Assembly (NCBI GenBank): GCA_963921195.1
Contig: OY992537.1
Span: 68,626,040 to 68,690,039 of the forward strand
Reading direction: 5' to 3'
DNA length: 64,000 nucleotides
Source of the DNA: Pegoplata infirma
Taxonomy: Eukaryota; Arthropoda; Insecta; Diptera; Anthomyiidae
This document shows positions 23,972 through 60,070 of this stretch, piece after piece. The position numbers were made by a program, and so were the translations under genes. The notes beneath the pieces are model-generated. The model was not told the DNA's origin, did not search any database, and saw only the letters and a list, made by a program, of their open reading frames with translations. Every line of letters begins with the position of its first letter. Within the stretch, counting starts at the first letter, position 1.

Positions 23972-24428
23972 TAGTTATAAGGATAAAACCAAAAAAATTA
24001 CATTTTAAACTTCCTTACAATGTTCTGATGGTATTCCTGATCTTATCGAGGCTGAATTTTTTTCAAAAGTTATGTAATTTTGTTGGGAAAAGGAATAAAA
24101 AGACAACATTAACGCTTCTTTTAATATCAACAGAATTCTTGGATTTGGGGGCTTGATTCACAAAAAATTCAAATTCCCATATCTCGAGAAGGCGATTTAT
24201 TACAACTTTTTTATTTAAAATTTAATATTTAAATATCATAAAAAGGTCTAACCTTAAAATTAATATAAAAATATGGTTTAATAAACACCATTTCTTTAAT
24301 TAAAAAAGAGTTTATATTTGAATATACATAAATTTTTTTTTGGGGGATTTTATATAATTTGTAGGGTATTTTTGGGGATTTCATTTTTCAAATTGGGGAC
24401 AAGAGCCAAATATTTTCTGGCAACACTG

Positions 24429-26105: not shown

Positions 26106-26113
26106 TGCAGTAT

Positions 26114-28633: not shown

Positions 28634-28636
28634 TTA

Positions 28637-28798
28637 TTTATAAAAAAAATATTGATGAAAAATAATATTGATGAAAAAAAATATTGATGAAAAAAAATAT
28701 TGATGAAAATAATATTGATGAAAAAAAATATTGATGAAAAAAATATTGATGAAATATTGATGAAAAAAATATTGATGAAAAAAAAAATTTTTGATGCA
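28637..28798. repeat. TATTGATGAAAA array fragment
   Basis: About ten units, again ending directly at the palindrome module, as at 17048. Confidence 0.88.
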
Positions 28799-28818
28799 AA
28801 ATAATTATGTTACGTTTT

Positions 28819-28836
28819 ATTCACCAGCTGGTGAAT
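28819..28836. other. Perfect 18-bp palindrome, copy 3
   Basis: ATTCACCAGCTGGTGAAT with the same upstream block (aaataattatgttacg) and downstream tail as copy 2. Confidence 0.85.
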
Positions 28837-30640: not shown

Positions 30641-30906
30641 GCAAGTTTTGAAATTTGTCAGGCTATGTTATTACTAAGTCCCTTTTTAGTCAAACAAATT
30701 TTTAAGTAATAAAAATATTTTTATTGCACGACTTTTTCAACACATTTTTTTGATACTTAAAGTCCAATATTCGAAAAAAAAATCAATAAAATATAGGACT
30801 TTTTTACATGTTTACTTCATGAAATGTTTTAGATGTGGAGACATTTTTACTAACTCTGTTAAATTACAGAAAAACTCTGCTAATTTAACAGAGTACACCA
30901 TAATTA
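30641..30906. other. Host DNA with CTCTGTTAAATTAC words
   Basis: Unique sequence up to about 30840, then repeated aactctgttaaattacag-type words that continue on the far side of the next two insertions (34365-34435 and 37452-37980), so these pieces were once contiguous. Confidence 0.55.
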
Positions 30907-39185: not shown

Positions 39186-40447
39186 AAAATATGTTTACAA
39201 AAAGGTCGAAATAAAAATCTAAATATTAGTTTTATTTAAGCGATATCTCAAAAACTAAAGATGTCTCAAAAAAAAAGGAAGAACATTTTTAGAATCAGCA
39301 TATCCAACATACGTTAAATCCTCATTTACTTTTTGGATGCAAGACCAGTTTTGGTAAATATAGTCCCACAAACAAGCCAAAAATAGCCTATTTTCAAAGT
39401 TTCCTTGGGGTATATCTCAAAAACTAGAGCTGACTTAAAAAAAAGGGTAGCTAGATTTAAAATCAGCGTACCCCAATTACCCAAAACTAGCTATCAGAAC
39501 CCGGGCAAAAAAAAATAGTGTTGCACTGTGTTATTGTTAACTGCACACAAAAAATTATTGGCTAAAAATTAAATCTATTGATAAACAAATTATAAATGAG
39601 TCAATCAATGTTTTGATTTTCAACATACCAGATTTTGTTTCGCTTTAATTTATTTGTTCAAAAGTATACAAAATAATCGGGTTTTACTATTTTTATTGTT
39701 GGCAATATATTGGAAAGCTAAAAATATGTAATTTTTCATAATTTCGTCATAAGCTTACAATTCATTTGTTAAATCAATCATTATTTTGATTGACTATAAA
39801 TAAGAAATTGATCAAATTTGTAATCAAAATCGAGAAAATGTTTAATTGAAAAAATATTCAATTAATCATCTACAATTTGATGATTGGTATAACAATTTTC
39901 TTTATTGTATGCATTTCAATAAAACAATTGATTGAATCTGCCTTTTTGTTGATTGAAATTCGTTTCAAATTCTTTCTTTGTGTATAAAAATATAATGGAA
40001 TTTTAAATAAAAATTTAATTTGACATATGATAAATTAAACATCAAGAAAACACAATAAGACACAATGTTCTTATTACATTTATCACCTATTATAACAAAG
40101 TAATAACAACAATAATAAACAGACAAAATTACAACCAAACAAAGAAATCATAAGTGTAACAAATATACAAGACAAAACAAGATATAAAAATATCTTCAGT
40201 TCATAAAAACACCCAGGACATACAAAAACGCTAGAGTAGGTTGACATCATTTTAAATTTATTTTCGAAAGGTCTAATATTTGCAATTTTACTATTACTCA
40301 AACAATTTTTTTTTACATTAACGCCCACAAATAAGGCGGGTCAAAAATAACATTTTGTTTTCTTTAAGTTTAAGTGTAGGACTTTTAAATTTTTCTGACA
40401 TAAAAATGTATTATTTGTTTAACAAAAGTACAAAAGATTTTTTTCAC
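39186..40447. other. A+T-rich DNA, no clear gene
   Basis: Contains GTTGCACTGTGTTA at about 39521 (compare gttgcacagtgtta at 18389 and 29808, possible element ends), and a stretch at 39550-39980 of ATTGATTTTG/CAATCAATC words starting with ACACAAAAAATTATTGG and ending TTTCTTTGTGT, perhaps a weak MITE. The frame at 40083-40328 (minus) has no recognisable features. Confidence 0.35.
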
Positions 40448-41400
40448 ACACACAAAAAAAATGCCTTCGAATTTTGTACTCTTGCCCAAAACATTAAATT
40501 ATGATAATGTTTTGCGGAAGATCTGTGGAAAGCAATATGCAGTCCAAACCAAAAAAGCTTTACATTTGGTAAATGAGTGCAAAAGTAAGTGCAAAAAAGT
40601 ATTTTTACGTTTTGGAGAGTATAAAAGATTCGGCACCGAAGAATTTTACAGTCTCAATTGTTTTATGTACATTTGATAAACAAATGGAACATTTTTATGT
40701 GAAAAGTTTAGACATGTTAAAAAGTAATTTTGGTAAAAAAAAGGGGATATATGATTTTTGGTGAAAAAAAATGTTTGATGGATGAAAAAAAGTTTTTGAT
40801 CAAGAAAAAAATTTTTTATAAAAAAAAAAAAAAAATTATGAAAACAATTTTTTTTTTTGAAAAAAAAATTTGAGAAAGAAAAACAAATTTGACGAAAAAA
40901 AAACTTGGATGAAAAACTTTTTTGATGAAAAAAAAAGTTTGATAAAAAAAAAAAAATTAATGAAAAAAAAAATAAATTGATAAAAAAAAAATTTGACAAA
41001 AAAAGATTTGATGAAAAAAAAAAATTAATAAAAAAAATTGACGAAAAAAAATTTGATGAAAAAAAAATTTGATGAAAAAAAATTTGATGAAAAAGATAAA
41101 TTTAATAAAAAAAAAACAAAAAGTTCAATGAAAAAAAAAATTTTGATGAAAAAAAAAAATTGACGAAAAACAAATTGATGAAAAAATAAATTTGATGAAA
41201 AAAAAACAAAATTAATGAAAAATAAAGTTTTATGAAAAAAAAAAATTTGATAAAAAAAAAAATTTCCATCAAAAAAAAATTATGAAAAAATTTGATGAAA
41301 AAAAAATTAATGAAAAAAAAAGAATTTTATGAAAAAAAAAAAAAAAAAAATGATGAAAAAAAAATTTGATGAAAAAATAACTTGGATGAAAAACTTTTTT
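40448..41400. repeat. Degenerate TTTGATGAAAAA array with unique lead
   Basis: 40448-40760 is low-copy and contains gtataaaagattcggcac at about 40620 (also at 11351). From about 40760 to 41400 a heavily diverged array of TTTGATGAAAAAAA units follows, related to the TATTGATGAAAA arrays. It ends at another copy of the palindrome module. The minus-strand FFF-rich frame at 40646-40999 is low-complexity shadow. Confidence 0.75.
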
Positions 41401-41613
41401 TGTTGAACAATAATTATGTTACTTTTTATTCACCAGCTGGTGAAAAAAAGTTTATTCACCACGAGATGATTTATTATTTTTGGTTTTAAGAAAAAGAAAA
41501 TAGTAATTCTTATTTTCTTTTTCGTTAATTGTTAGCTTATATAGTCAAACTGAGGTGGCATCCTGCAATTTTTTTAAAATTAGACACCAGCCTAAAAACA
41601 TTATCATGTTAAA
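41401..41613. repeat. Third, diverged copy of the D1 head
   Basis: Matches 17049-17167 and 17376-17455. The palindrome at 41428-41444 keeps CACCAGCTGGTG but its last base differs. It has gttagcttatatagtc with a single TTA at 41533, which is the empty site of the 17168 MITE. Confidence 0.85.
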
Positions 41614-41618
41614 AAAAT

Positions 41619-41844
41619 CCAGTGAACGACTTTCATAGTATTTATGATCAAATTCATACAATTTATTAACTTTTTCTCACTATTTATAAACTTTTTCATA
41701 GTATTTATGAATAAATCAAAATATGTGAAATTTAAGAACTATTTAACATTTTTCATAAATACAATGAAAAAGTTTATAAACATTATGAAAAAGTTAATAA
41801 ATTGTATGAATTTGTTCATAAATACTATGAAAATAGTTCATTGG
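41619..41844. mobile_element. Foldback MITE
   Basis: 226 bp. Left CCAGTGAACGACTTTCATAG, right (reverse-complemented) CCAATGAACTATTTTCATAG; the arms stay paired for about 90 bp through TTCATACAATTTATTAAC. It begins exactly where similarity to D1 ends. No certain target duplication. The frame at 41644-41895 is only the arms being read through. Confidence 0.75.
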
Positions 41845-42955
41845 AAAAAAATGTTTTTGTGTGCATTATTTTACAAAATTTATTGCAGGTTGTAAAGTTA
41901 TGATTTTTTAATTAAATTCATTTTCAGTCTACTTTAATAAACAAAATCTTGAAATAAAATGGCATTAAAAAGTAGACATAGAGCAGTAGATTTTTGTTCT
42001 TTCAGAGTCATAGAATCACTAGAGGAAAACAAATATATTTTTTTATACAAAATTATGTTGTCAAAAATAAAATCCTTATGATTGTGTCGGAATAATATTT
42101 CTATGATGCACAACATGTGTGCCTTTGGATTATAATGCGTAACTTTATAAATGCCTGAGGGTGTCTCCTAAATTTGCTTGTTTCTTGGTATGACTTTACG
42201 GAATATTTGAATATTCATATCGAGGGGTTATTTTCAAAACTTGACATCTTCGGTGTTGTAATTTTGCAGATAGGAAGTTTTAAATATAAGCACTCGATAT
42301 ATCGTCCATTCCATGAGACATTTTAAAAAATCTGACCGAGCGTCTTCCGATTTTTGTTATATTTTTTATACAGATTCTCTATGGAGCCAATTTCAAATTT
42401 CATCCATCAGATCGAAAATAATCGAAAAACTCGCTATTTTATTCACGATTTTCGTTTTTAAAAAAGTAAAAAAATGCAAAATCTGTGTAACTTTGAGCAG
42501 CTGTACTTTCTAAACTACCCCAGCAAAACTTTGGTAATGGGTGGTGATTATATAACACGTTACCAGGTAAAGTATATAACTTATTTGTAGCATTATTTTA
42601 TGATGTCTTACCAAACATTTGCTCCACAACGTATTATTTTCAAGTGAAAAATAATGCATTACTAATAATTTGCTACGCAATGCATGATTATTGGAAAAAA
42701 TGTATTTCATATTTATTATTTCTAAACATTAAATCATGGATGACTTATATTTGGTTACATTATGTATTATTTGAAAGTTTGAAATAATGCATTATTTATA
42801 ATTGGATGCATAATGCATTACAATAACATAAAAAATAATTATTTTATAAAAAAATGCATAAGTTTAAACTTGAGATGGGCTCACGACAGGAAATTTCTAA
42901 CGACACACACTCACGACCATATTTTATCTACTTACACTCACTTACGATCACATGA
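41845..42955. other. A+T-rich DNA without a recognised gene
   Basis: 42522-42880 starts with CCCCAGCAAAACTTTGG and contains several ATAATGCATTATT-like words, so it may be another foldback element, but no right terminus was found. The small frames here lack recognisable content. Confidence 0.3.
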
Positions 42956-43559
42956 CCCGAGTAAAAAGGAATTTATATAAATGTATATTATTTTATATGT
43001 TTTCATAAAACCATATACAACTATATGAGTCAAAGTATAAAATTATATCTCATTTTGAAATTTTCCAATTTTTTTAAATGATGTCATATAAAATCATATC
43101 TAATTATATTGTTCATAATATATTAATATAAATGGTAGATGTAATCATACGTTGCACATAAAACTTAATCCGATTTCATACATTATTATACGTGACTTTA
43201 TATCTAATTATGTATAGGACTTTACTAAACAAAAAATCCAGTATCAATTTATGTATAATTATATATGACTAATATAATACCATTTAAAACTATATATGGT
43301 TCCATACTAAAAAAATTTTCAACAAAAATAATAGATATAATTATATGTGTCTTAAACGATAACATATCTGTGTTTGTATGGCACTATATATACGTAAATT
43401 TCGTCTAAACTCAATATATATTTATAAATGGTCGCATATGTAATGGAATATATATTTTGATATAATCATGTATAAAAAAAATATTTTTTTGACCAAACAA
43501 CTAGCCATATATAATTATATATGCCTGTATTTCAAAATTAATTTTTGTGTGTCAACATA

Positions 43560-44250
43560 TATGGTTATACAAAACTTTTTATTGTATCATATAAGATTAC
43601 ATATGATTTTTGGGAACCCGAGTTCGATTCCCGGCCCAGTCGAGAAAAAAAAAGTTTTTTTTTATTTTTTTTAAATAGAAAACACTTTTTTATTTCGTTT
43701 AATTTTTTTAGAACTAAAAAATTTTTATTTTTGGAATTTTTGCAATCATTTTTAAAAAATTATTTTTCTTTTATATAGTTATATATAACTATATTTGATT
43801 TATTATAAAATTATCTATAATTTTTTGGAACCCGAGTTCGATTCCAGAAAAAAAAATATATTTTTTTTATTTTTTTTAAATAGAAAACACTTTTTTATTG
43901 CATTTATTTTTTTAGAACTAAAAATTTTTCTTTTTTTTAATTTTTGCAATCATTTTTAAAAAATTATATTGCTTTTATATAGTTATATATAACAATATTT
44001 AATTTATTATGAAATTATCTATCATTTTTGGGAACCCGAGTTCGATTCCAGAAAAAAATATATTTTTTTATTTTTTTTTTTTAAATAGAAAACACTTTTT
44101 TATTGCATTTGTTTTTTTAGAACTTAAAAAATTTTATTTTTTGAATTTTTGCAATCATTTTTAAAAATTTATATTGCATTTATATAGTTAATAATAGCTA
44201 TATTTGGTTTAAATTATCAAATTATCAATGATTTTTGGAACCCGATCTCA
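43560..44250. repeat. ~205-bp direct repeats with a B-box-like motif
   Basis: Units start near 43612, 43827 and 44029, with a decayed unit near 44238. Each has GGAACCCGAGTTCGATTCC, whose GTTCGATTCC resembles the polymerase III B box, then a T-run and AAATAGAAAACACTTTTTTA. The first unit continues as CGGCCCAGTCGAG, like a tRNA 3' half. The copy in element 2 is at about 48195-48840. Confidence 0.8.
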
Positions 44251-44600
44251 AATCTAATTCTTATTTCCTGATTCCATGAAAAATTTCAAACTTATAAGCC
44301 AAAGTCTTATTTCATTTTGGAAGCCTATGACTTGGAAATAAGGCATACCGCTACATTAAAATTATTCTTTAAGCTTACCATGGAAGCCCCTAAAAGCGCT
44401 GTACGTCATTCCAATTTTTTTTTTTTTTTCAAATTTTATCAAAAATTTTCTAAGTCTTTTTGAAAATTGTGTACAAGTGAATAACACACATATTTAATTG
44501 GATGTAATCATATATTACTATATGTTAGATCAATTTGATATAATTAGATACGATCAATTTATTTAAAACTAAGTCTTTTAAAGTTGTTATTTGCTAACAA

Positions 44601-44676
44601 CGTCCGCTGGTCTAGAGGGTAGAGATTGCGATTACAAAACGGAAGACTTGTGGTTCTAATCCCCGTCCGTTCGAAG
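44601..44676 (+). pseudogene. tRNA-like segment in element copy 1
   Basis: TGGTCTAGAGG at 44608-44618 fits the A box consensus and GGTTCTAATCC at 44652-44662 fits the B box at all but one base, with 33 bp between them. The layout and the ATTGCGATTACAAAACGGAAG centre resemble a tRNA, and a long T-run follows directly, as a polymerase III terminator would. Acceptor pairing (GTCCG ... CCGTCC) is imperfect. Probably a tRNA-derived passenger, possibly still transcribed. Confidence 0.6.
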
Positions 44677-44810
44677 TTTTTTTTTTTTTTATTTATTTTC
44701 AGTTTGACATTATTATATCTAAAAATAAATCTAAAAACAGAAACATTTATTGGATAAAAATGTATCCAATAATTTTTTTATAAAATCAAGATATCAGATA
44801 TTATAAGATA

Positions 44811-45090
44811 ACTTTGGCGCGGCCAAATTTCGGATGAAATTACATTATATAATATCCAATTTAATATAAAATCATTATAATGGATATTTTAAGATAACTT
44901 TGGCGCGGCCAATTTCCGGATGAAATTACATCTTATCATATCATATTTAATACAAAATCATGATAATAGATAATTTGGGATAACTTTGGCGCGGCCAATT
45001 TCCGGATGAAATCACATACAATCAAATATTAAACTGTAACTTCATATATTATAAGATGTTAGGAGATAACTTTGGCGCGGCCAATTTTCG
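44811..45090. repeat. Four repeats with TTTGGCGCGGCC
   Basis: AGATAACTTTGGCGCGGCCA followed by ATTTCGGATGAAATTACAT-like sequence occurs four times about 80-90 bp apart. GGCGCGGCC is a G+C island in an otherwise extremely A+T-rich element and is conserved in all eight copies of the two elements (the second set is at 49395-49680). Confidence 0.85.
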
Positions 45091-45177
45091 GATGAAATTT
45101 AGCAAAATCATATCCAATAAATTATATATAATTTTATAAGATAACATGTTTTACCATACAATTTTTTTTTACTCGGG

Positions 45178-45721
45178 GAGTAAATTTAACACAAAATTAC
45201 TTTTTCACGTAACACCTTATATATTATCTTCTGGTATGCTACACCCGGAAAAGTTTTACAGTAACTTTTTACGGTTATTCAAAAAGTTTTTAGTTAAAGT
45301 TGTTTTAAACGTTTTATCGTTTGTTTTTCAAGGAAATAAAATATTGAATGATTCATACAGTTGTAAAAACAATGAACTACAAAAGTTACGGAAAAATAAT
45401 TTTATCAGTTAAATTATTTGTGACTGATTATTCCGTTATATATAACAACAGCAAATTTAAATAATTAGATATAATTATATAAAAAAATATAAAATTGTAT
45501 AAAACTGTATAAAACTATATAAAGTTACATAAAATTATATATAATTATATATAATTAAAACAAAATTTTATGATTTATATAAAACTTGATATAATTTTAT
45601 GTAACTTTATATAGTTTTATACAGTTTTATACAATTTTATATATTTTTATATAATTATATCTAATTATATAATTTTGCTATTATTATATAAAAATAGGGG
45701 TCCAAATTTCGCATAAAGTTA
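45178..45721. other. Spacer between the two CCCGAG elements
   Basis: Contains the reverse-oriented copy of the 22785-22995 repeat (45245-45440; its frame 45146-45412 is not conserved as a protein) and a near-perfect inverted repeat at about 45455-45690 whose arms contain AATTAGATATAATTATATA and AAACTGTATAAAACTATATA. Confidence 0.7.
45455..45690. repeat. Near-perfect A+T inverted repeat
   Basis: Arms of about 100 bp around a short centre near 45570; both sides carry TTAGATATAATTATATA, TATAAAATTGTATAAAAC and TATAAAGTTACATAAAAT or their complements in mirrored order. Confidence 0.85.
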
Positions 45722-46527
45722 CCCGAGTAAAAAGGAATTTATATAAATGTATATTATTTTATATGTTTTCATAAAATCATATACAACTATATGAGTCAAA
45801 GTATAAAATTATATCTCACTTTGAAATTTTCCAATTTTTTTAAATGATGTCATATAAAATCATATCTAATTATATTGTTCATAATATATTAATATAAATG
45901 GTAGATGTAATCATACGTTGCACATAAAACTTAATCCGATTTCATACATTATTATACGTGACTTTATATCTAATTATCCATAGGACTTTACTAAACAAAA
46001 AATCCAGTATCAATTTATGTATAATTATATATGACTAATATAATACCATTTAAAACTATATATGGTTCCATACTAAAAAAATTTCCAACAAAAATAATAG
46101 ATATAATTATATGTGTCTTAAAAGATAACATATCTGTGTTTGTATGTTACTATATATACGCAAATTTCGTGTAAACTCAATATATATTTATAAATGGTCG
46201 CATATGTAATGGAATATATATTTTGATATAATTATGTATAAAAAAAATATTTTTTTTAACAAACAACTAGCCATATATAATTACCCAGGCAGAAACTGCC
46301 AACCGTTCTAAAGAAAAAGTCTCGGCAAAGCACTTTATTTTTTGTGTAGAAGGTAGTATGAATTAAAAAGTGCTTTCCAAGCGCTTTGCCAATGTTTTTC
46401 TATTTAAATCCGTTCAAAATATACATTTTTTATTAAAATTTTAATTTTTATAACAATTGGAACATTTTTTATTTCCCTGCAGAATAAGTGGCCGGTCCTT
46501 GATAGTTCTCATGATATGTCACTTATA

Positions 46528-47049
46528 CCCTGTTCTCACTTACACTTAAAAAACATTTTTAGCAACATTTTTCGTTTTATGCTTAAAAACCATTTTTATG
46601 ACTCGTTTTACCATACATTTTTTTGTTGTAATATGTCAAAATAAAAATGTTTTTAGCTCGTTTTAAAATTAAAACGATTTAAAACGAGCGGAATTCCAGG
46701 GGTTGAATTGAGTATTTTTGAATGTTCAGCGTTTTTAAAGCATTTTATTAATATTGGCAACATTGTTTATTACTAAAATGTAAATAATACAAAAAAAAAT
46801 CGTGCTATTTTCATCTTTAAACAATTCTTGAACATTATAAATAGTTATATGTATAATTAATGAATATAATTTCAATATTTTAATATCGTTTGTTGTTAAA
46901 ATGTGTACATGTTTATCAGCTGATAATGCAAATGTCAAAATAAAAACATAAAAACCAAAATAAAACGAGTGAAATTACGTGTGAACACTTTTTTTTTAAT
47001 TAAAACAAATGTCGTTTAAAACCGTTTTTAGATGCTCGTGAGAACAGGG
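46528..47049. mobile_element. CCCTGTTCTCAC-ended MITE nested in 46284
   Basis: 522 bp. CCCTGTTCTCACTTACAC at the left and CCCTGTTCTCACGAGCATC at the right (reverse-complemented); TA on both sides (46526-46527, 47050-47051). ACATTTTTAGC/ACGTTTTAAA-like words are repeated inside. The minus frame 46735-46938 is not recognisable as a protein. Confidence 0.88.
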
Positions 47050-47063
47050 TATTAGGCAAAATT

Positions 47064-47492
47064 GCAGTTTATGGGGCACACTGAAATCGAAAAAACTAAA
47101 AACGCCATCCGCTTTAGAATTAAAAAAAAACAAAATTATTGATTAGTGGCGCCGGGAACTTTTTTTGGGGTCCTCTTTAATAGGGACATCCAGGGAAGGG
47201 ACATCTTAAAAAAAAAAATTTTTTTGTTTTAAAATTTTTTTCTGCGTAGCCGGCCTTCGGCCGGGCTTAGGGATTACAAAATCCATGCATTAAACCCACC
47301 CTCTCCGCAAAGTAAAGTTTTCTAGGGTATCAGGCCGGTTAAAATCAGTGCTAAATTCGCAACTTTATGCGGGGCTTAGAGGTGCTTCCCGAGTCCGGCG
47401 CCACTAATCATTAATTTCGGTTTTTTTCTTTTTTAATTCTTGGTCGGGTGGCGTTTTTAGTTTTTTTAATTTCCGTGTGCCCCATAAACTGC
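47064..47492. mobile_element. Long-TIR foldback element with G+C hairpin
   Basis: 429 bp. Inverted arms of about 100 bp begin GCAGTTTATGGGGCACAC on both sides and run through AAAAACGCCA and GATTAGTGGCGCCGG. AATT lies at both borders (47060-47063, 47493-47496) but, being palindromic, could be target duplication or part of the TIR. The middle contains the perfect hairpin CCGGCCTTCGGCCGG at about 47250 and is far richer in G+C than its surroundings. Confidence 0.85.
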
Positions 47493-49190
47493 AATTCAGC
47501 CGTCACTTATACAGAATGACCTACATATTACAAACTTGACACCTTTTATATAAAAACACCTCTTTCTTTCGCGAGGAAGTGTCTTAAACTCCGGATACAT
47601 CACCCTTAAACTCCGGATTCATACCCGTTTCGGTTCAATACACCACTTTTTTCGGGACTTTTCTAAATTTTTTCCTAAAAGCATTTTTAATAAATTTTTT
47701 ATTCCAAAACGCAAAGAAAACTGCAAACAAATTTTTTCCGGGACTTAGAAAATTGTTCAAAGTTTGTTCAACATTTTTTTATCCTAATAAATGAGTCAAT
47801 AAATTATCCTAATTTAATAAATTTCTTTGTTCAAATAAACAACAAAAAAGTAGTGTCTTATGGACTTATGTATACAATTTAGATACGTCCCATTTTTTTG
47901 TTCTAAAAGTGCTATAATAGTACCATATTTTTTGTTTTTAAAGCGCTTTCCAAGCGCTTTAAAATAGCAACGGCATACCGTTTACCGTGGTTATCATTTT
48001 GGACGCTGGGAGAGTACTAAACTGTGATGCTTTCCCAGCACACAAGCGACCATAAAAGGTACTTTGCCAGCGCTCTCCCGTTCGTATTTTTCTGCCTGGG
48101 TATATATACCAGTATTTCAAAATTTATTTTTGTGTGTCAACATATATGGTTATACAAAACTTTTTATTGTATCATATAAGATTACATATGATTTTTGGGA
48201 ACCCGAGTTCGATTCCCGGCCCAGTCGAGAAAAAAAAGTTTTTTTTTATTTTTTTTTAAATAGAAAACACTTTTTTATTGCGTTTAATTTTTTTAGAACT
48301 AAAAAATTTTCATTTTTGGAATTTTTGCAATCATTTTTAAAAAATTATTTTTCTTTTATACAGTTATATATATGTAACTATATTTGATTTATTATAAAAT
48401 TATCTATAATTTTTGGGAACCCGAGTTCGATTCCAGAAAAAAAATATATTTTTTTTATTTTTTTTTAAATAGAAAACACTTTTTTATTGCATTTATTTTT
48501 TTAGAACTAAAAATTTTTCTTTTTTTGAATTTTTGCAATCATTTTTAAAAAATCATATTGCTGTTATATAGTTATATATAACTATATTTAATTTATTATA
48601 AAATTATCTATCATTTTTGGGAACCCGAGTTCGATTCCAGAAAAAAATATATTTTTTTATTTTTTTTTATATAGAAAACACTTTTTTATTGCATTTGTTT
48701 TTTTTAGAATTTAAAAAATTTTACTTTTTGAATTTTTGCAATCATTTTTAAAAATTTATATTGCATTTATATAGTTAATAATAGCTATATTTGGTTTAAA
48801 TTATCAAATTATCAATGATTTTTGGAACCCGATCTCAAATCTTATTCTGATTTCCTGATTCCATGAAAAATTTCAAACTTATAAGCCAAAGTCTTGGAAA
48901 TATGACTTGGAAATAAGGCATATGACTTGGAAATAAGGCATACCGCTACATTAAAATTATTGTTTAAGCTTACCATGGAAGCCCCTAATAGCGCTGTACG
49001 TCATTCCAATTTTTTTTTTTTTTGCAAATTTTATCAAAAATTTTCTAAGTCTTTTTGAAAATTGTGTACAAGTGAATAACATATTTAATTGGATGTAATC
49101 ATATATTACTATATGTTAGATCAATTTGATATAATTAGATACGATCAATTTATTTAAAACTAAGTCATTTAAAGTTGTTATTTGCTAACA

Positions 49191-49266
49191 ACGGCCGCTG
49201 GTCTAGAGGGTAGAGATTGCGATTACAAAACGGAAGTCTTGTGGTTCTAATCCCCGTCCGTTCGAA
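49191..49266 (+). pseudogene. tRNA-like segment in element copy 2
   Basis: Same as 44601-44676 with the A box TGGTCTAGAGG and B box GGTTCTAATCC unchanged; the flanking stem base differs (ACGGCCGC here, ACGTCCGC there). Conservation of both boxes in two copies is consistent with either recent duplication or retained polymerase III promoter function. Confidence 0.6.
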
Positions 49267-49766
49267 GTTTTTTTTTTTTATTTATTTTCAGTTTGACATT
49301 ATTATTTCTAAAAATAAATCTAAAAACAGAAACATTTTTTGGATAAAAATGTATCCAATAATTTTTTTATAAAATCAAGATATCAGATATTATAAGATAA
49401 CTATGGCGCGGCCAAATTTCGGATGAAATTACATTATATAATATCCAATTTAATATAAAATCATGATATTGGATATTTTAAGATAACTTTGGCGCGGCCA
49501 ATTTCCGGATGAAATTACATCATATTATACCATATTTAATACAAAATCATGATAATAGATAATTTGGGATAACTTTGGCGCGGCCAATTTCCGGATGAAA
49601 TCACATACAATCAAATATTAAACTGTAACTTAATATATTATATGATGTTATGAGATAACTTTGGCGCGGCCAATTTTCGGATGAAATTTAGCAAAATCAG
49701 ATCCAATAAATTATATATAATTTTATAAGATAATATGTTTTACCATACAATTTTTTTTTACTCGGG

Positions 49767-49888
49767 TACATAAAAAATTTATCAAAATATATGAAACATT
49801 GATCAAATTTTATATAGTTTTATCGACTCATTTTTCGCATCAAATTCTATATAATTCTATTTAATCATATATGATGTTTATAAAATTA
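49767..49888. other. Host DNA between two element insertions
   Basis: Short A+T-rich stretch between the copy-2 element and the gene-bearing element; together with 52119-52152 it is probably the remainder of an older CCCGAG-type element whose right terminus (TTTTTTACTCGGG) is at 52140-52152. Confidence 0.5.
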
Positions 49889-52118
49889 CCCAGTCAGAAA
49901 AATGCAATCAGAACAACGTCGGTACGGTGTTGGAGCCGATGTTACAATGTACCAGAGACATCCGATATACTAATTTTATGGTGTTGGTAGGATACATAAA
50001 TGATAACGTCAGAAGATTGTTCTCCGACTTTAAATTTTAACATTGTCAGAATGTTATAATACCAAAAATTTGGTATTAATATAATACCCCGAATATAAAA
50101 TTATGACGTTAAAATTATGTTGGTTAACGAATTTTATGACGTTAAAACGGAGTTGGTCATACCAAAAATATGGTGCTACTAGAATACATTACAAATAAAA
50201 AATGAATTAAAGAAATTAAAATATATTTTTTATATATTTCATATTAATTTTATTTTAAAAATTTTTGTTTTGTTTAAAATCAATTAATTACACCATTAAT
50301 TTTTTTACGTCCCAAGTGTCGTTCCTTTGCGTTTGCAAACCAGCGGCTGGTCTTTGAAAGTATTTCGCCTTCAGTTTGAGCTGGAAAATTATTGAGAAGT
50401 TGTTCTGAAACCAAAAAAAAATATAAGTCAATAAATATTTTATTATAACAATATTAATTTATTTCAAATAGAACTTACCTTTAAACATAGTGTAAATTTT
50501 GGTTGCACTGAAATTTTCTTTAGCTAAACCATTATGTAATCTCCCACATCCACTAAACAATACTTGGAGTTGTGGTTCCAACAGCATTGTGAGAAAGTTG
50601 TTAATTCCCTCGCTTAAAGATTTTCCTCGTGCTTTAGTTTTTAGAATTTCTTGCTGATTAAAGGAAAAATAATAGAAATATGTAGATAAACGTACAACTT
50701 TAAAAAACATTCACTAAAATAATACCAAAGCAGCCATGTGAGCATTGTCTGTATTTATTTTATTTTCCAAATCTTGAAAAGCCGCCATATCATTTAAAGG
50801 CTCGTCCAAGTTCAAAGACTTTTTATATTCAGACAATGATTTGGATTTGTTATTCGCAGCAAAGTGGAGGGATAGGTTGTCATTTAACTTCTTAAATTCG
50901 TACATAAAATTTCTACGAAGAGCTACCATGTCTTTATTTATTTGTGACACCATTCCTCTTATCTCGTTTTTAAATTCTACAAATTCTAAAAAGAAATACG
51001 TTTTTAATTAAATTTTTTTTAAAAGGATTCACGTAGAAACTTAAAAAAAATAGCTGCTACATACCATTTACTTCTACTGAAATCTGTTCTCTTCCAGCAG
51101 TTGCATTTGAAGTCAGTGGCTCAGCTGGAGAATGAGGACAAGTATCGGTTGGAATTGTTAGGTCATCAATTGCATCTTTGAAGGAAAAAAATAATAGTAG
51201 TAATAGAAATAAATAAATTATATATAACACATAAAAATATACTTACTTCTTCGGATCATACTTCTTTTTTGGATTTTCTCCGCTTGGGAAGACGTACTAG
51301 CACAGTCCATATTTAAAACCGAATCAAGCAAATTTTGAACATCTAAAGAAAATAAATTAATATTGTTTCAAAATTATTTAAATTTTATAAAAAAAAACAC
51401 TTACTTGTATTGTCATTTGTTTTTTCAACTGCTTGGCCAATAGCTTTACGTTTCGGCATTTTTATTTTCACTTTATAAATTTTGGACGCTTTTTAATTTA
51501 CAGTTATTTTTGTGTTGAATACAATAGCATTTCCAAAAAAAACAGTGTTGCCTTAAACTTTTTTAAGTTTGTATGAGATGGGGTTGCCAGTTATCTGAAT
51601 TATGCGTAATCACAATCAGGGCTTAACTACAACTTTAATTTATTTTTAACATACATACTAAAAACATAATGGGAATTCAGAAAATAATATTAAATTAGTG
51701 CAATTAAACCATATCCTTTTGGAAATATTAAAGAATTTTTGATATTTAATTAAAACAAAATAGAAAATAATGATTTACTATTAAAGTTTTTTTTGTGAAA
51801 GCTAAAAATACGGTAGCCAAATTTACGATAACTATTTGCCATAAAAATCTAAAATTTTAGTTACAAAATTGTTTTCTTTAATATTGTATTATCTTTAATT
51901 CAGCTAAAAAGTTGTGGGTAGTTATTTTAAACGAAGTTCTTGCGTCGTATTTTTTGATATCCAATGTTATTGTGGTGCTAAATTCATACGTTAATATAAG
52001 GCCACATTTTTAGATCTCCGATGTTATGGCAGCGTTAAATTTTTAGAGAGTCGTATTTTTGGATTTCCTGTGTTATGGGGGTGTTATATTTTTGGAAGAG
52101 TTGGAATTTCTGACTGGG
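49889..52118. mobile_element. CCCAGTCAGAAA-ended element carrying a spliced gene
   Basis: 2230 bp. Ends CCCAGTCAGAAAAATGC and, reverse-complemented, CCCAGTCAGAAATTCCAAC, one base different from the 46284 element over the first 12. TA flanks both sides (49887-49888, 52119-52120). Both subterminal regions contain repeated ATAACRTYRG/ATGTTAY-like words next to ATTTTTGG or CCAAAAAT, possible binding sites for a mobilising protein. The only gene inside is the six-exon minus-strand gene at 50280-51459. No DDE-type transposase is visible, so it is either non-autonomous with a passenger gene or the gene product is part of an unrecognised mobilisation system. Confidence 0.9.
50280..51459 (-). CDS. Six-exon gene, DUF4806-like protein, 273 aa
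   Basis: Exons on the minus strand: 51459-51405, 51342-51247, 51175-51065, 50985-50726, 50653-50479 and 50404-50280; 822 nt including TGA. All five introns are 61-78 nt, begin GT, end AG after a pyrimidine tract, and keep the frame. The start is ATG at 51459 (aaaataaaaATGCCG). The N-terminus MPKRKAIGQAVEK is basic and could be a nuclear signal. Residues about 95-130 (FVEFKNEIRGMVSQINKDM onwards) look like a helix or coiled coil. Residues about 142-235 (PLNDMAAFQDLENKI; FLTMLLEPQLQVLFSGCGR) and the ending RWFANAKERHLGRKK resemble DUF4806 proteins, a family of unknown biochemical function common in insects. AATAAA lies about 35 bp past the stop. DUF4806 is assigned by eye; the exon structure is much surer. 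Confidence 0.82.
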
Positions 52119-53529
52119 TATATACAACTATATAGGAACTTTTTTACTCGGGCAGTTAAAATAACTGAAATATCGTTTGTTTTTACGGAATGTCTAGTCA
52201 GTTATTAACGTTTAAAAATAACTGAAAAATTATGTTGTTTTAAATGAAATATAAGTAGTCCGTTTTTTAAAAGGAAAACGATTGTTTTAAACTTTTTTCA
52301 GTTGAATTTACTTACAAAATATTTTGAGTGTATATTACTTCATTTCTCGTAACCTATAAAATATCATATATTTTACACTTAACTCGTATTCTTCGTTATA
52401 AATTTATGACTTATTTTATACCTTACTGGTACTTTGAGTCTCATCGCCTGTTAAAATCATCAATGCTGCAATGTATAAAATAAGAGATCCTATACCTTAT
52501 TTTATACCTTATTTGGTAATCTAAGTTTTGCTGCAACAAATAGACAAAAATCTGAAAAAAAAATCTCAAAAATCTTTTTGGCCATAAAATTTCATATTCC
52601 ACTGTAAGATTTGCAAAAAAACGTTCTTGGTGAAACGCCCTAAAGTTTTAGCTTAATCGAATTTAAATTCAGCAAGCAATTTCAACCAGGTTTTTACACT
52701 GTCACACCATACGAATAATTGATATTCAAATTTATCATACGCCACAGTATGAAAGTTATTATTGACAAAGCACAATTATCGCATGCGTATGAGCAACATT
52801 ATTTCACAAAACAGCATAAATAAATCATAGGTTTTATTAGAAAATTTATTAATATTCAACATAGACTACAAAACAAGTAAAAATTAACGCGAACCAAAAA
52901 ATCTTTAACAATTCTTTTCTAAAAATAAAATTATAAAATTAGGGTCATGATACTTTAAAATTTAATTTATTTTATAAAAAAAAATTTCAGCACCAACAAA
53001 ATACCTTTCTAAATGTTTTAGTTTAAAATCGCTTTATCATGTAATTACCAATTGTATTTATTCATTGGTAATTTAAGGATTTTTTCTTTACATTTTTTTT
53101 TTTCTTTTTTGTGTTTAAATTTGTTAATGATCTCTAATAACAACCAAACTGCCATGCAAACATGTTAAATACAAATCAAAAAAAAAAATGTTAAGTACTT
53201 GTACTTTACAATATATTTTTTTTGTTGCTTTTCATGATGAATTGCTAAAAATTCAAAAGATAATTAGTGATTTGCTAAATATTTAGCAATGCGAAGTTAG
53301 TGGTTGAAATCTGAGGTCATTAAATAAATGATTTGCACAATAAGAACTTTGATTTTTTTTTTGGATTCCAAGATTTTTTTTCGTTTTGTTGTTTAAAATA
53401 AATCATGTTTTTAAAATGAAAATTTAAAAGAAAGATATTTATCATATTCTTAGCACTTGTAAAAAAGAAAAAAAAAAAATGTAACGGAAGAAAGAGGACG
53501 AAATTTAAGAACAAAAACGATAACAAACT
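52119..53529. other. Element remnants and low-copy DNA
   Basis: An orphan CCCGAGTAAAAAAG right end (52140-52152) and an orphan CACTCAAAATATTTTG right end followed by TA (52322-52339). After that no clear structure up to the minisatellite; the frame at 53320-53526 is a homopolymer-rich shadow. Confidence 0.45.
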
Positions 53530-55438
53530 TTTCTTTAGAAAATAACATATCGATGTAACGATAACAAACTTAACTATAGGAATTATGGATTAAAAACTTT
53601 TATCGATGAAAAAGTTTCTATAGAAAATTAGTTATCGGTAAGAACCTTTTCTATAGAAAATAAGTTATTAATAAAAAAATTTTCTATAGCAAACTTTTCT
53701 ATAGCAAATTAGTTATTGAGGTATCGATTGTATCAGTAACAAAATTTTCTGTAGAAAATCACTTATCGATGTATCGAAAACAAACTTTTCTATAAAAAAA
53801 TTTAGTTAAAAAATTAGTTATCGATAATAAACTTTTCTATACATAAAAAGTTATCGATGTATCGATAGCAAACTTTTCTTTAGATATCGAATATCGATAA
53901 CAAACTATTCAATAGAAAATTAGTTATTGGTAAAAAAAATTTTCTATCGAAAATTAGTTATCGATAACAAACTTTTGTATAGAAAATTAAATGTCGATGT
54001 TGCGATAACAAAATTTTTTATAGAAAATTACAAAATTTTTTTTAGAAAATTACAAAATTTTCTATAGAAATTTGTTATCGATAACAAAATTTTTAATGGA
54101 AAATTAGGTATCGATGAAACGATAACAAACTTTTTTGTAGCAAATTAGTTATCGATGTATCGATAACGAACTTTTCTATAGAAAATTAGATATCGATAAC
54201 AAACTTTTTTACAGAATATAAGTTATCGATAGCAAACTTTTGCTATAAAAATATTCACATAAAATGTTACTTATCTATTAAAAAATTGTCAATACACAAA
54301 AAGTTATAGATGTATCGATAGCAAATTTTTTTTTTTAGAAAATTAGTTACAGAAATCACATTTTTTTATAGAAAATTAGTTATCGATAGCAAACTTTTCT
54401 AAAAAAAATTAGTTATCGATAACAAACTTTTCTATAGAAAATTATTTATCGATAAAAAACAAATTTTAAATAGAAAATTAGTTATCGATATATTGATAAC
54501 AAACTTTTCTATAGAACATTAGATATCGATAACAAACTTTTCTATAAAAAAATAATTATCGATAACAATATTTTCTATAGAAAATTATTTATCGATGTCA
54601 CGATAAGTAACTTTTCTATAGGAAATCGGTTATTGAGATATAGATTGTACCAATAACAAAATTGTTTATAGAAAATTAGTTAACGATCCATCAAGAATTA
54701 GTCATCGAAAAATTTTTTATAAAAAATTAGTTTCAAAATTAGTTATCGATACTAAACTTTTCTATGCATTCAAAATTTATTGAAGTATCGACAGCAAACT
54801 TTTCTTTAGAAAATAAGTTAATAAGATATCGATAACAAACTTTTCTATAGAAAATTAGTTATCGATGTATTGATAAAAAACTTTTCTATTGAAAATTAGT
54901 TATCGGTAACAAGCTTTTGTATAGAAAATGAATTGTCGATGTATCGATAACACAATTTTCTAGGGAAAATTAGTTATCGATGTATCGAAATCAAACTTTT
55001 CTTTAGTTAATTAGTTATCGATAACAAACTTTTCTATAGAAAATTATTTATCGATAACAAGCTATTGTATAGAATATTAGTTATCGATAGCAAACTTTTC
55101 TATATAAATAGTCACCTAAAAAATTAGTTACAAAATTAATTATTAATAATAAACTTTTCGAAACATAAAAAGTTATCGATGTATCGACAACAAAATTTCT
55201 ATAGAAAATTAGTTATCGATGTATAGATATAAAACCTTTCTATGGAAAATAAGTTATCTATGAAACGATAACAAAGTTTTCTGTAGTAAATTAGTTATCG
55301 ATAAATCGATAACAAACTTTTCTATAGAAAATTCGTTATCGATAACAAACTGATAATTAGAATGTTAGTTATCGATAACAAACTGTTGTTTAGAATGTAA
55401 GTTATCGGTAGCAAACTTTTCTATAAAAATAGTCACCT
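53530..55438. repeat. ~33-bp minisatellite with ATCGAT and CTATAG dyads
   Basis: Tandem units of about 33-45 bp, consensus AACTTTTCTATAGAAAATTAG followed by TTATCGATAACA, some with an extra TGTATCG. Two palindromes alternate, TTTTCTATAGAAAA and GTTATCGATAAC. The first is identical to the core dyad of the 9398-11345 array. Non-coding. Confidence 0.92.
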
Positions 55439-55440
55439 AC

Positions 55441-55518
55441 GTGGGTGCCCCCGTAGGCTAGTTGGTAGCGAGCTAGCCTTTCAACGTGGAGGTCGTGGGT
55501 TCGATTCCCACCAGAACC
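55441..55518 (+). pseudogene. tRNA-like head of a SINE-like insertion
   Basis: GTAGGCTAGTTGGTAGCG resembles a D arm and A box; GGTTCGATTCC at 55498-55508 is a perfect B box, inside an intact T arm (GTGGG loop CCCAC). The 5' GGGT pairs with the 3' ACCC, but the rest of the acceptor stem and the anticodon stem do not pair well, so this is not a working tRNA. It interrupts the minisatellite. Confidence 0.7.
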
Positions 55519-55630
55519 CTTGGCTTTTTCGCTACAACAAGACGACGGTCATTGTTACCAGTTCTCGGTTAGGCTGAATTTATTAAAAATGAGTTGTAAA
55601 TAAATACAAAGAATAAATAAAAACAACAGA
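55519..55630 (+). mobile_element. Body and A-rich tail of the SINE-like insertion
   Basis: A tRNA-unrelated body (gacgacggtcattgttacc and so on) follows the head, and the segment ends in AAATAAATACAAAGAATAAATAAAAAC. Head, body and A-rich tail are the SINE layout. Target-site repeats were not identified with confidence. Confidence 0.55.
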
Positions 55631-56277
55631 GGGCAACATTTTTTTTTTTTAACTTAAATATAGTTAAAAAAATAGTTAAGCCAAAAAATTAACAAACTTT
55701 TCTTTGAAAAATTAGCCATCAATTACAAATTTTTCTTAAGAAAATTAGATATCGTTAACAACATTTTCTATAGAAAATTAGAAATTGATATTAATCATTT
55801 CTATAGAAAATTAGTAATGGAATGTATGTTTATTGTTTTTTTTTTTTGTAAATACGAAGCTTTCCTTAACTTCCTCTTTAAAAAAAAAATCATATATTTG
55901 TTTATTTGTACAAATATTAAAATTGATTTGTGTTAATTCCCCATTGTGATTTTCTTATTCAACATCAAAAAACGTTTAACATAAATTATCGCTTAATAAC
56001 GGTATGTTATAAATCTTAACTTTGGCAATTTGGCAAAAACTGTGCATTGAATACCAACACATGTACTAACTCACGTACATTTAAGCAAACGGAAAGATTC
56101 CCGAAATACACACTTAACTTAAGTTTGTACCTGTCTATAACCAATTTTCATAATATTTTCCCATTTTAAACGTATTTGAAAACGGAAAATGTTGTCAGCA
56201 TATGTTACCTTATAGATAAGCTATTATCATATTTTAAGTTGAAATCTTTTGCTGAAATTGTAATCCACCATGCCATG
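55631..56277. other. End of the minisatellite and unique DNA
   Basis: A few decayed minisatellite units at 55680-55815 show that the array once continued past the SINE-like insertion. 55816-56277 is A+T-rich unique sequence with no frame of interest. Confidence 0.5.
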
Positions 56278-56478
56278 TAGGGTTGCCAGACGGCCTGGAA
56301 TGGCCTGGATTTTCCAGTTATTTTGGGTCTGGTCCAGTTTCCAGTTAAGTGTATAATTTTTCCAGTTAATAAATAATTTCTTAAATTTTAAAAATATTTT
56401 TTTTATTAAATAAATTTTACAATTTTTTTTAATAAAACATTAATCAAAAAGCTGCCACTTTTTGCTGCATTTTCATTA

Positions 56479-56876
56479 CACTAAAAAAAACCTGGTCAAA
56501 TTACTAGAAAAAGTCTCGAAATCCAATTTTATTAATATTTGACAGTTTTCCTTGTTTTTTAACAGACAATTTTACAAAAAAAAATCCGGTAAATTCACGA
56601 GAATTCCATGTAAGTTTTATTTTACCAAAACAGTTGTAAACTTGCAATTATATTGGCAAACAGCTAATCATTTTTATTAGGAATTCTCGTAAAATATAAG
56701 GATGCCAAAAATATAGAAAATTCAAAAGAATTCCTTGTAAGTTTTATTGCGTCAAAAAATTTGTAAATTTACAAAATTAATAGTAAAAATCTTGTTAAAT
56801 TACAAAATTATTGGTGAAAATTACTAGGAATTCTCGCCAAATAGAGGGTAGCAAAAAATAAGCTTTTTTTTTAGTG
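56479..56876. mobile_element. CACTAAAA-ended MITE in the hAT-like element
   Basis: 398 bp, ends CACTAAAAAAAACCTGG and, reverse-complemented, CACTAAAAAAAAAGC. TA on both sides (56477-56478, 56877-56878). The interior has the GGAATTCTCGTAAAATA words found at 17440-18040 and 60288. Confidence 0.88.
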
Positions 56877-56892
56877 TACTTTTGTTTATTAC

Positions 56893-57020
56893 TTACGAGC
56901 ATATCGGCAGTCTAGTTCTTGACGAATGGTTTCCTTCACCTCGTAGATGATCAAAGGATTGTTGGCGTACATTTTGCTTTACAAATAACCCCACAAAAAT
57001 AAGTCCGGAGAGGTAAAATC
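56893..57020 (-). pseudogene. Mariner-like transposase C-terminal fragment (minus)
   Basis: Conceptual reading DFTSPDLFLWGYL, stop, SKMYANNPLIIYEVKETIRQ, then ELDCRYARK and TAA. The PDLFLWGYL...K.YANNP...I.E.K..I pattern is the C-terminal catalytic region seen in insect mariner-like DDE transposases. One in-frame stop; the N-terminal domains are absent. It faces the plus-strand fragment at 57412. Confidence 0.7.
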
Positions 57021-57072
57021 TGTAGATAAGGGCCAGTTATTGTCGCTTTTTGACATCGCACGTCCAGGGAAC

Positions 57073-57400
57073 TTTAGGTTAGGTTAGGGGTGGTGGAGCC
57101 TAAAGTTCAGACTCCTCGCATAGACCGGCTGGTCCATAGCGATACCACAATTTCCTTCAGCGACGAGGATAAAACGCGTTAGTCCATGTTGCGAACAGTT
57201 TTAGTTGCGTAAGGTCCGTAGCGGCGATATCATCCAGATTCTCGATTTCTGCTTTACCTAGTATTCGCTCGCGGTGTCTGGCCAATGCGGGGCATTTGCA
57301 CAGAATATGTTCAACTGTTTCATCTGTATTAGGTTCATCACATTTTCTACAATTGGCATCCGAGATAAGTCCCATAGTTTTCGCGTGAAACAGGAAACTT
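57073..57400 (-). pseudogene. LINE C-terminal fragment with CCHC-like knuckle
   Basis: Reads ASFLFHAKTMGLISDANCRK, with C..C...H...C spacing in CRKCDEPNTDETVEHILCKC, then PALARHRERILG, ending near ATWTNAFYPRR at 57157. This Cys/His motif after RNase H is typical of R1/I/Jockey-type LINEs. The 3' end runs into CCACCCCTAACCTAACC at about 57075-57100. AACTT at each border may be a target duplication; the inverted copy at 62870-63431 lacks this insert. Confidence 0.7.
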
Positions 57401-57411
57401 GCCACAAATAT

Positions 57412-57590
57412 TTCCTGATCCGATTTCTACTCCGGACTTATTTCTGTGGGGTTATTTGAATAGAAAAATATACGCCAGCAATCCTCAAACTATTGATGAG
57501 GTCAACATCAACATTCCGAGACGCTCAAAAGTAATAAATATGCTTAAAAAAGTACAAATTTTGCCATGGCCAATAGAGGCGACCATTTGA
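57412..57590 (+). pseudogene. Mariner-like transposase C-terminal fragment (plus)
   Basis: Reads DPISTPDLFLWGYLNRKIYA then SNPQTIDEVNINIPRRSKVI and ends at a stop near 57590. Same pattern as the minus-strand fragment at 56893 but clearly diverged from it, so the element carries two opposed, unequal fragments. The catalytic residues upstream are absent. Confidence 0.7.
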
Positions 57591-57767
57591 TTGATTTTAT
57601 ATTGGAATAGTAGTCCAAAATAAAGATATTTCACATTTGAAAATCGGTTGTTTTTTTTAAGTTATTAAAAAAATATGTATGTGTCCAGTTATTTTCTGAA
57701 AATCCAGCTGAATTTTTGCCATATTCCAGTTATTGGACTTATAGTATCTGGCAACCCTAATGCCATG

Positions 57768-58154
57768 CCACCTACCCAGTTACAAACATTTCAAAATCAA
57801 CATTTTGGGTTTTCAGACGATTCAAACAAAAAAAAAAACATATGAATATAATGGGAAAAATATTATTTTCATATTATGCAAATTTTTATTGTTTTAAACA
57901 TAAAATGTTAGAACGAAAAAAAAAAAAAAGAAAAAAGCAACAAACGTGTTGGATTGAAGGATTTTCTTTACCAAACATTTTAAAAGGATTTTTTTTTGTT
58001 GTTCTTAAAGATTTTCATTTTTGTGTCAATTTATTTTGATGATTTTTTGTTTGTTGTTAGACTTAAATCGATTTAAGTTTTTTTTTTTGTATGTTAAATT
58101 ATTGTTTAAGTTTAGAAACAAGTAAACACCATTTCTAAATGTATTTCTAAGGTG
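57768..58154. other. Low-copy A+T-rich DNA
   Basis: No element ends or credible gene. Open frames 57842-58039 and 58026-58256 are A/T-homopolymer-rich and unsupported. Confidence 0.35.
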
Positions 58155-58368
58155 CACTAAAAATATTTTGTAGGGAAAAACAAATGAAAAACACATTAAC
58201 AACAAGTGACAAAACAATTGAAAACCATCCCAGTAATTATTAATTTTTTTTAACAAACATTAAAAAATTTTTTTTTACTGTTAATAAAATTTTCTAAAAT
58301 AAATAACATTAAACATTAAAAAATAACGTCATTTCATTTTTTATTACCAGCAAATTCGAAAAAAATAA

Positions 58369-59086
58369 CCCAGCAAAAATAAATCGAGATTTCGGCGATA
58401 CAGCATCTTTTTATAGTATACCGAAGCGCATCCAAAAAGCGCTCTTGAGGATGCAGTGAAAGTAAGGGGAAAAAATTAAAATTTTTTCTTCAGATTTTTT
58501 AAATAAAATAAAAATTTACACTTGCTTTCCTTTTTAATATATTCAGCACTTTTTGATTGAAAAACCATGAGTTTTGGACAAAGACACATGATTTGACTGC
58601 ATCATTATTGCGCAAATATCGGCGCTGCAAAAAGTGCTTCAATCATAACATCTTTAACACAATTTGAATGAAAAAATAGGTCCGATTTTAAAATATTTTT
58701 TAGTATTTAAAAAACAATTTGAGTACCTACACCATTTCCACTTTATATTTTAAGATTTTCCAACTGTATTTCAGATATAGTCAATTTTATTTCAGATTTT
58801 CCTATTGTTTTTCAGAAATAGTTAAATGTGTTTCATTTTTATTCTGCTTAAATCAGCTCTAAAAAGGTACATGAATTCACTGCATCTTTATAGCGCTTTT
58901 ATCAGCGCTCTAAATAGACGTGGTTTCAGAGCATCTTAAGAGCGCTTTTTCGGTGTATCCAACTAGCGCTCTAAAGTGTGACATCGGCTTAGAGAATCAT
59001 GCATGAATTCAGCAGGTTTTGATGCGCTCCTTGAATCAAGTTTCCTTTCCAAAAGCTGCTGCCAGTTCAGCAAAATTTCTGCTGGG
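58369..59086. mobile_element. CCCAGCA-ended element with AA duplication
   Basis: 718 bp. CCCAGCAAAAATAAATCG at the left and CCCAGCAGAAATTTTGC at the right (reverse-complemented). AA on both sides (58367-58368, 59087-59088). The reverse-complement of 34960-34985 (aaaaaaataacctacg) is the empty site with one AA. The interior has AGCGCTC and GCATC repeats. Related to the CCCAGTCAGAAA and CCCAGGCAGAAA elements. Confidence 0.82.
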
Positions 59087-59242
59087 AACCTACGAAAACA
59101 TTAAAAACTATTGATTGTTGTGTTATTTTTTACAAAAAATTCAAAAAAAACTACCTACGAAAACATTAAAAATTAATGATTTTGTAGGTTATTTTTACAA
59201 TTTTTCTATTGAATTATATTTTAACAAACATTTAATAAAATT

Positions 59243-59306
59243 TTGGGGAATCGATCCCGCAATCAACTACATTCTGGCCAGACACTCTACCCATCGTGCC
59301 AAAGTC
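59243..59306 (-). pseudogene. tRNA-like segment, less damaged copy
   Basis: On the minus strand: GGCACGATGGGTAGAG (A-box-like), then GGATCGATTCC (59247-59257, one or two mismatches from a B box). It lies at the equivalent place in the reverse-oriented copy as 34817-34873 in the other, so it is part of the transposon family. Confidence 0.55.
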
Positions 59307-59493
59307 ACTTGATACAAACATGTTTTTATATTTGTATAAATAATTTTTTTAATCTTTTTTCTACAAAAAAATAACCTACAAAAACATAAAAACTTATGAT
59401 TTATCTTTAAAAATGCCAACAATTCAAAAACAAAAAAACGTATACATATCATTAAAAATTAGAGAAGAATCACTTATATTGAATACTAATGAA

Positions 59494-60070
59494 TAGGGAT
59501 GAGACTTCCATGCAAATGCATGTTTTTTGTCGATAGTCTAAAAACGATATCGACCAATTATCTTTCCGAACAAAGAAATTTGCGATAAAATGGCATCGAT
59601 TTGTTTTTGCATATATTTGCATATTTTGGTAAAAATGCATATTTTTGCATATTTTTGTTTTACATGCATATTTTGTGCATATTTCTAACTTTTAAGTGCA
59701 TATTTTTGCATATTTTCGCATAAGTGAGCAAAAACATAAATTAAAATTTAAATGTTTCAAAAACTTTTTTAAATTTTCAAAATTTTTTTTTAAAATGATA
59801 AAAATTATTTTTTTTTTTTTAAATTTTTTTTCAAAGATTGTCTTAATTTCTAAAAAATCTTGCTTATATAAAGTTTTAAATGTAACTATTTAAACCCGGC
59901 ATTACTTTTTGTTTTTTAGAAGGTTTTTTTCTATGAAAACAAGACTTTCATTGCACACATTTTATTTTTTAGTGCATATTTTTAGGTTTTTTAGTGCATA
60001 TTTTGAATTTTTTAGCGCATATTTTAAGCTCATATTTTCGATTTTTTAGTGCATGAATCTCTCATCCCTA
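59494..60070. mobile_element. hAT-like MITE with TTTTGCATA subterminal repeats
   Basis: 577 bp. TAGGGATGAGACTTCCATGC at the left, TAGGGATGAGAGATTCATGC at the right (reverse-complemented). The 8-bp CTAATGAA is duplicated at 59486-59493 and 60071-60078. Many TTTTGCATATTTT / GTGCATATTTT words lie near both ends, typical of clustered hAT transposase binding sites. No transposase frame. Confidence 0.92.

Follow-up and report, generated by a model that had tools for sequence, protein, structure and literature searches.

The window analysed here is a 64,000-nucleotide stretch of the Pegoplata infirma assembly GCA_963921195.1 (contig OY992537.1, positions 68,626,040 to 68,690,039). It contains an element with terminal inverted repeats (TIRs) that encloses a minus-strand gene model of six exons, running from 51459 to 50280 and comprising 273 codons with a TGA that ends at 50280 (Table 1). 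The TIRs are identical over 14 bp when the TA on each side is counted in, and thus the TA-flanked TIR element proposed in a first-pass annotation of this DNA was recovered with perfect ends. TACCCAGKCAGAAA has four exact matches within the window, compared with a mean of 0.00 in 100 shuffles. A perfect inverted pair of 14-mers with at least 6 G/C and a spacing of 1.5–3 kb occurred in 3 of 100 shuffled windows; the real window holds 84 such pairs, contributed by several elements. Few subterminal words are common to the left and right ends of the gene-bearing element: direct sharing was matched by 37–38 of 500 shuffles and is marginal, and inverted sharing showed no excess over chance in the shuffle test. 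No second copy of the DUF4806-like gene was found within the window, and an Rfam scan of positions 40000-60000 returned nothing at gathering score.

Table 1. Coordinates, in window positions, of the gene-bearing element, its gene model and the sister element.
Feature	Position	Strand	Remark
Gene-bearing TIR element	49889-52118		~2.2 kb, TA on both flanks
Left terminal inverted repeat with flanking TA	49887-49900	+	TACCCAGTCAGAAA
AATAAA polyadenylation-type signal	50249-50254	-	starts 26 nt 3' of the stop
Exon 6 through TGA	50280-50404	-	
Exon 5	50479-50653	-	bulk of DUF4806 match
Intron 4	50654-50725	-	weak donor GTATTA, strong acceptor
Exon 4	50726-50985	-	helical segment and beginning of DUF4806 match
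Exon 3	51065-51175	-	
Exon 2	51247-51342	-	
Exon 1	51405-51459	-	start codon
Three direct 41-bp subterminal repeats, right end	51944, 52001, 52050 (span 51944-52090)	+	
Right terminal inverted repeat with flanking TA	52107-52120	-	TACCCAGTCAGAAA in inverse orientation
End type of the gene-bearing element, in the form for relatives			CCCAGKCAGAAA
Sister element	46284-48100	+	CCCAGGCAGAAA ends, TA flanks

Introns 1 to 5 measure 62, 71, 79, 72 and 74 nt, and all five are bounded by GT and AG. The gene model of the first-pass annotation, with its six exons, five GT-AG introns and 273 codons to the TGA at 50280, was thereby reproduced; only the lengths given for the short introns, 61–78 nt, had to be adjusted to 62–79 nt. 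The exons have a GC content of 0.33–0.41, compared with 0.11–0.22 in the introns and 0.25 in the flanks. The donor of intron 4, TTG/GTATTA, scores -4.4 versus 3.7 to 8.0 in the other four introns. Among the 15 listed frame-consistent donor-acceptor pairs for intron 4, defined as those that leave the rest of the gene model unchanged, the pair used in the model is the sole GT-AG combination with the acceptor at 50653. The gene had also been termed intact: all six exons are indeed open, but the poor intron 4 donor leaves this attribute uncertain. The gene is real in form, and its intactness is unproven owing to that donor.

Whether such a spliced frame may arise by chance was assessed with a spliced-ORF finder that accepted introns of 50–100 nt, required at least 30 nt of exon ahead of each donor and used generic splice-site weights. 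At a permissive donor threshold, which admits all five introns, no spliced ORF in the element is longer than the 273-aa model, which the finder returned exactly. None of 200 dinucleotide shuffles reached this length (mean 55, maximum 175), in agreement with the earlier assertion that chance does not give such a chain of introns. Longer products were obtained from 3 of 100 other window stretches, all of them over the LINE open frames at ~23.5–28 kb. Restricting the search to consensus-like donors shortens the best model to 177 aa, with three introns and a stop within exon 4, because intron 4 starts with TTG/GTATTA; the shuffle maximum under this setting is 120 (n=200). When splice signals are ignored, the element yields 335 aa, 4 of 200 shuffles attain 273 aa, and products above 273 aa come from at least 6 of 100 other window stretches, some of them far from the LINE. 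Since this splice-free control yields long frames by chance, length alone does not carry the case, which depends on the splice signals too.

A Pfam search with the spliced product identified DUF4806 (PF16064) at an E value of 5.8e-4 and 20.6 bits, below the curated cut-off of 25. The assignment as DUF4806-like made in the first-pass annotation is therefore supported by the E value but not by the family threshold. The match extends over residues 147-227 and spans the exon 4/5 junction. Like DUF4806 proteins, the product covers nearly the full length of the profile (5-82 of 90) with its C-terminal half; unlike them, it stays under the cut-off and its gene sits inside a TIR element. C-terminal pieces scored 15.8 to 21.1 bits (E 3.9e-4 to 0.018). 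DUF4806 was retrieved with none of eight shuffled versions of the product, but chance matches to other families reached an E value of 0.0047, and the DUF4806 match is therefore good, not overwhelming. The product also hit ANC1_spectrin at E 0.16 and HAS-barrel at E 0.17 in Pfam, weak matches dismissed as chance level. Without splicing, none of the element's six frames gave a Pfam family at E ≤ 1; DUF4806 thus becomes visible only after splicing and no transposase can be recognised, consistent with its previously noted absence.

A DUF4806 consensus sequence, which Pfam recognises as DUF4806 with an E value of 2.2e-17, is identical to the 273-aa product at 31 of 114 positions, and the alignment runs through the 4/5 and 5/6 junctions to near the C terminus. 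As this consensus was written after the product was known, the alignment is a lead only. In the protein library, neither the whole product (1246 candidates) nor its residues 146-265 (43 candidates) had a match at E ≤ 10. The same library returned nothing for the DUF4806 consensus at E ≤ 0.001 (97 candidates); the family is therefore probably absent there, and the homolog negatives are weak. No PDB entry matched the product at E ≤ 10. Searches with the C-terminal 187 aa gave five pattern matches in viral contigs and 79 in prokaryote contigs, none of which was confirmed.

The basic N terminus claimed at first amounts to a slight excess of charge, with 9 K/R versus 7 D/E in residues 1-60, and short basic clusters occur in the product. 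The proposed helical segment is partly supported by the single-sequence structure model of exon 4, which is mainly helical and predicts a helix over residues 2-43 of that exon, but the coiled-coil heptad score of the product is reached by 63% of 1000 shuffles. Exon 5 is modelled as one long helix, which does not by itself indicate a BEN fold; the mean pLDDT values of the exon 4 and exon 5 models are 78 and 79, respectively. DUF4806 is described as a BEN-domain subtype (PMC11075544, citing Pan et al. 2023). Two further papers report a beetle gene set enriched in DUF4806 (PMC13270666) and, for two Hydra genomes, 69 and 54 copies of the domain, tabulated together with transposase domains (PMC7642931). 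None of the retrieved passages on DUF4806 describes it as transposon-encoded or as lying within a TIR element, and in the literature listings for the BEN domain together with DNA transposon, transposase or Harbinger no such element is apparent.

Evidence for mobility comes from a sister element whose CCCAGGCAGAAA ends differ by one base from those of the gene-bearing element. Of the two copies of a duplicated unit, copy 1 (42955-45177) and copy 2 (45722-49766), the latter contains the sister element; after computational excision of this element the copies are 97.0% identical, gap columns not counted. Copy 1 is uninterrupted at 43516/43517, where it reads AATTATATAT, whereas copy 2 reads AATTA, then the element, then TATATA. 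Copy 1 thus shows a clean empty site, with the TA duplicated around the element in copy 2; the difference arose either by insertion into copy 2 or by precise loss from copy 1, and elements with such ends have therefore moved. The TA duplication is seen at the empty site of the sister element, and by analogy the gene-bearing element probably duplicated TA as well. For the latter, no empty site was found within the window, and its joined flanks compared with the neighbouring repeat family gave a match that 33 of 500 shuffles equalled, which is not significant. The subterminal sequence of the sister element differs from that of the gene-bearing element; no gene was seen in it, and the spliced ORFs from stretches over it do not exceed 121 aa.

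Judged from these sequence features, the element appears to be a non-autonomous TIR transposon whose sole cargo is a spliced DUF4806-like gene. A TA target duplication suits Tc1/mariner-type MITEs, with which the gene-bearing element would share this feature. The DDE/D transposase that defines Tc1/mariner was not found in the Pfam search of the six unspliced frames, but a non-autonomous member would also be without one. Plant Pack-TYPE elements are likewise non-autonomous TIR elements with gene cargo (PMC8903248); the element described here differs in holding a complete-looking six-exon gene, for which the homolog searches gave no parent. Transposons with two ORFs and a DNA-binding second protein are represented by Harbinger with a Myb/SANT protein and by ISL2EU with YqaJ (PMC4482050). 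The gene-bearing element resembles these in that a TIR element codes for a probable DNA-binding protein other than a transposase, but its protein is of another type and it lacks the transposase. PIF/Harbinger and ISL2EU elements are characterized by a TWA or AT duplication and by ends beginning with A/G or GG (PMC4482050). Membership of either group was rejected for the gene-bearing element, which has TA flanks and CCC...GGG ends.

On the basis of these results, we tentatively favour, at somewhat less than even likelihood, a transposase-less, TA-inserting transposon with a gene for a BEN-like DNA-binding accessory factor of its own. The 2.2-kb element would be a non-autonomous DNA transposon of the cut-and-paste kind, with TA as its insertion site and as the sequence duplicated there. 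Its 273-aa protein, with a helical segment and a C-terminal BEN-like DUF4806 domain, may serve as an element-encoded DNA-binding accessory factor that attaches to the ends of the element or to its subterminal repeats; cutting would fall to a transposase from another genomic locus. The element could then have arisen by deletion, or be one part of a two-component system, and would have kept the accessory gene but lost the transposase. Expression of the gene, DNA binding and helper function of its product, and the gene's origin are what we infer. We favour an accessory factor because two-ORF transposons are known, the protein fits a BEN-like binder and the DUF4806 copy pattern in Hydra looks mobile. 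Counted against it is that no relative was seen in which the gene is paired with a transposase; the small number of common subterminal words, the sister element with its different subterminal sequence and no gene seen in it, the poor donor, the DUF4806 score under the cut-off, the splice-free control and the single long helix modelled for exon 5 are further points on this side.

Should the gene indeed encode a factor of the element itself, a domain of unknown function would gain a mechanistic role, and BEN-like DNA-binding domains would have a possible route for spreading between genomes. The wider proposition that DUF4806 (BEN-like) proteins are, at least partly, transposon-encoded DNA-binding accessory factors of TA-inserting, CCC-ended transposons is more doubtful and on balance unlikely; if true, it would explain the patchy, high-copy DUF4806 expansions in Hydra and others.

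Nearly as likely as an element-encoded accessory factor is the capture of a host gene, in which a DUF4806/BEN-like gene, together with its introns, promoter and poly-A signal, came to lie between two TIRs as cargo with no role in transposition; nothing here separates the two. To our knowledge, capture of a whole six-exon gene is rare in animals, which counts against this possibility, as does the lack of a host source gene among the sequences searched. The gene looks complete, has an AATAAA of its own and ~0.66 kb of sequence on its 5' side, and fills the element, as would be expected of captured cargo. Capture is also compatible with the lack of a recognisable transposase in the element and with a sister element that has near-identical ends and no long spliced ORF. 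Precedents are found in plant Pack-TYPE elements, non-autonomous DNA transposons that capture coding DNA (PMC8903248), and in the TET/JBP dioxygenase captured by fungal DNA transposons (PMC12730594). The mobile-element-like DUF4806 copy pattern in Hydra (PMC7642931) argues against a captured host gene. Should capture nevertheless apply, the locus would exemplify the uptake of a whole gene, introns included, by a small TIR element.

Rather improbable is a dying gene, that is, a formerly working gene of which this copy became a pseudogene through decay of the intron 4 donor to GTATTA while the frame stayed open. The score of this donor relative to those of the other four introns points in that direction, as does the consensus-donor model, which stops at the end of exon 4 and thus before most of DUF4806. 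However, the six exons are all open, the other four introns have consensus-like sites, and the pair used for intron 4 is the only listed GT-AG pair with the strong acceptor at 50653. Weak donors are, moreover, functional in some genes.

A coincidence, in which a resident host gene lies between inverted repeats that do not belong to one element, is very improbable. The missing empty site of the gene-bearing element and the non-significant in-silico flank join would be in keeping with it, but perfect 14-bp ends including TA, with a comparable pair in few shuffled windows, and the demonstrated mobility of the sister element with TA duplication speak against it. Least probable of all is that the exon chain is an artefact of after-the-fact splice-site choice: the lengths reached with splice signals ignored, the sub-threshold DUF4806 score and the lack of a homolog in the protein library would allow it, but no shuffle matched the model at the threshold that admits all five introns, exons and introns contrast in GC, the DUF4806 match crosses the 4/5 junction, and the library, being silent for the DUF4806 consensus as well, says little.

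The duplicated unit that harbours the sister element has ends of its own, CCCGAGTAAAAA...TTTTTACTCGGG, with five matches of CCCGAGTAAAAA in the window versus 0.34 expected, and the region is therefore a nest of insertions. The unit contains internal tandem repeats of 86 bp and ~203 bp. Its copies are flanked by GA/GA and TA/TA, indicating 2-bp duplications, perhaps of sequences other than TA in some cases, and a lone third end of this type is present at 52141-52152. Other repeats are nested within the sister element. One of them, at 46528-47049, has inverted ends CCCTGTTCTCAC...GTGAGAACAGGG with TA flanks and represents a third CCC...GGG end type; at 47060-47496, imperfect inverted repeats of ~100 bp are 83% identical.

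Farther from the gene-bearing element, endonuclease and reverse transcriptase matches (Exo_endo_phos, RVT_1 and DUF6451) are distributed over three open frames on the minus strand at 24391-27112 and mark a broken LINE-type retroelement. The earlier statement that every other coding match in the window is broken holds for these LINE matches, split as they are over three frames; its scope is the eight open frames scanned in all. Long inverted repeats of ~190 nt per side, with runs of common 14-mers, bracket ~2 kb at 35219-37174, and sparser inverted-repeat cases occur at 28280-31271 and 22270-24193. Two open frames at 986-1249 and 5786-6049, 4.8 kb apart, have identical 88-aa translations, which points to a tandem or segmental duplication.
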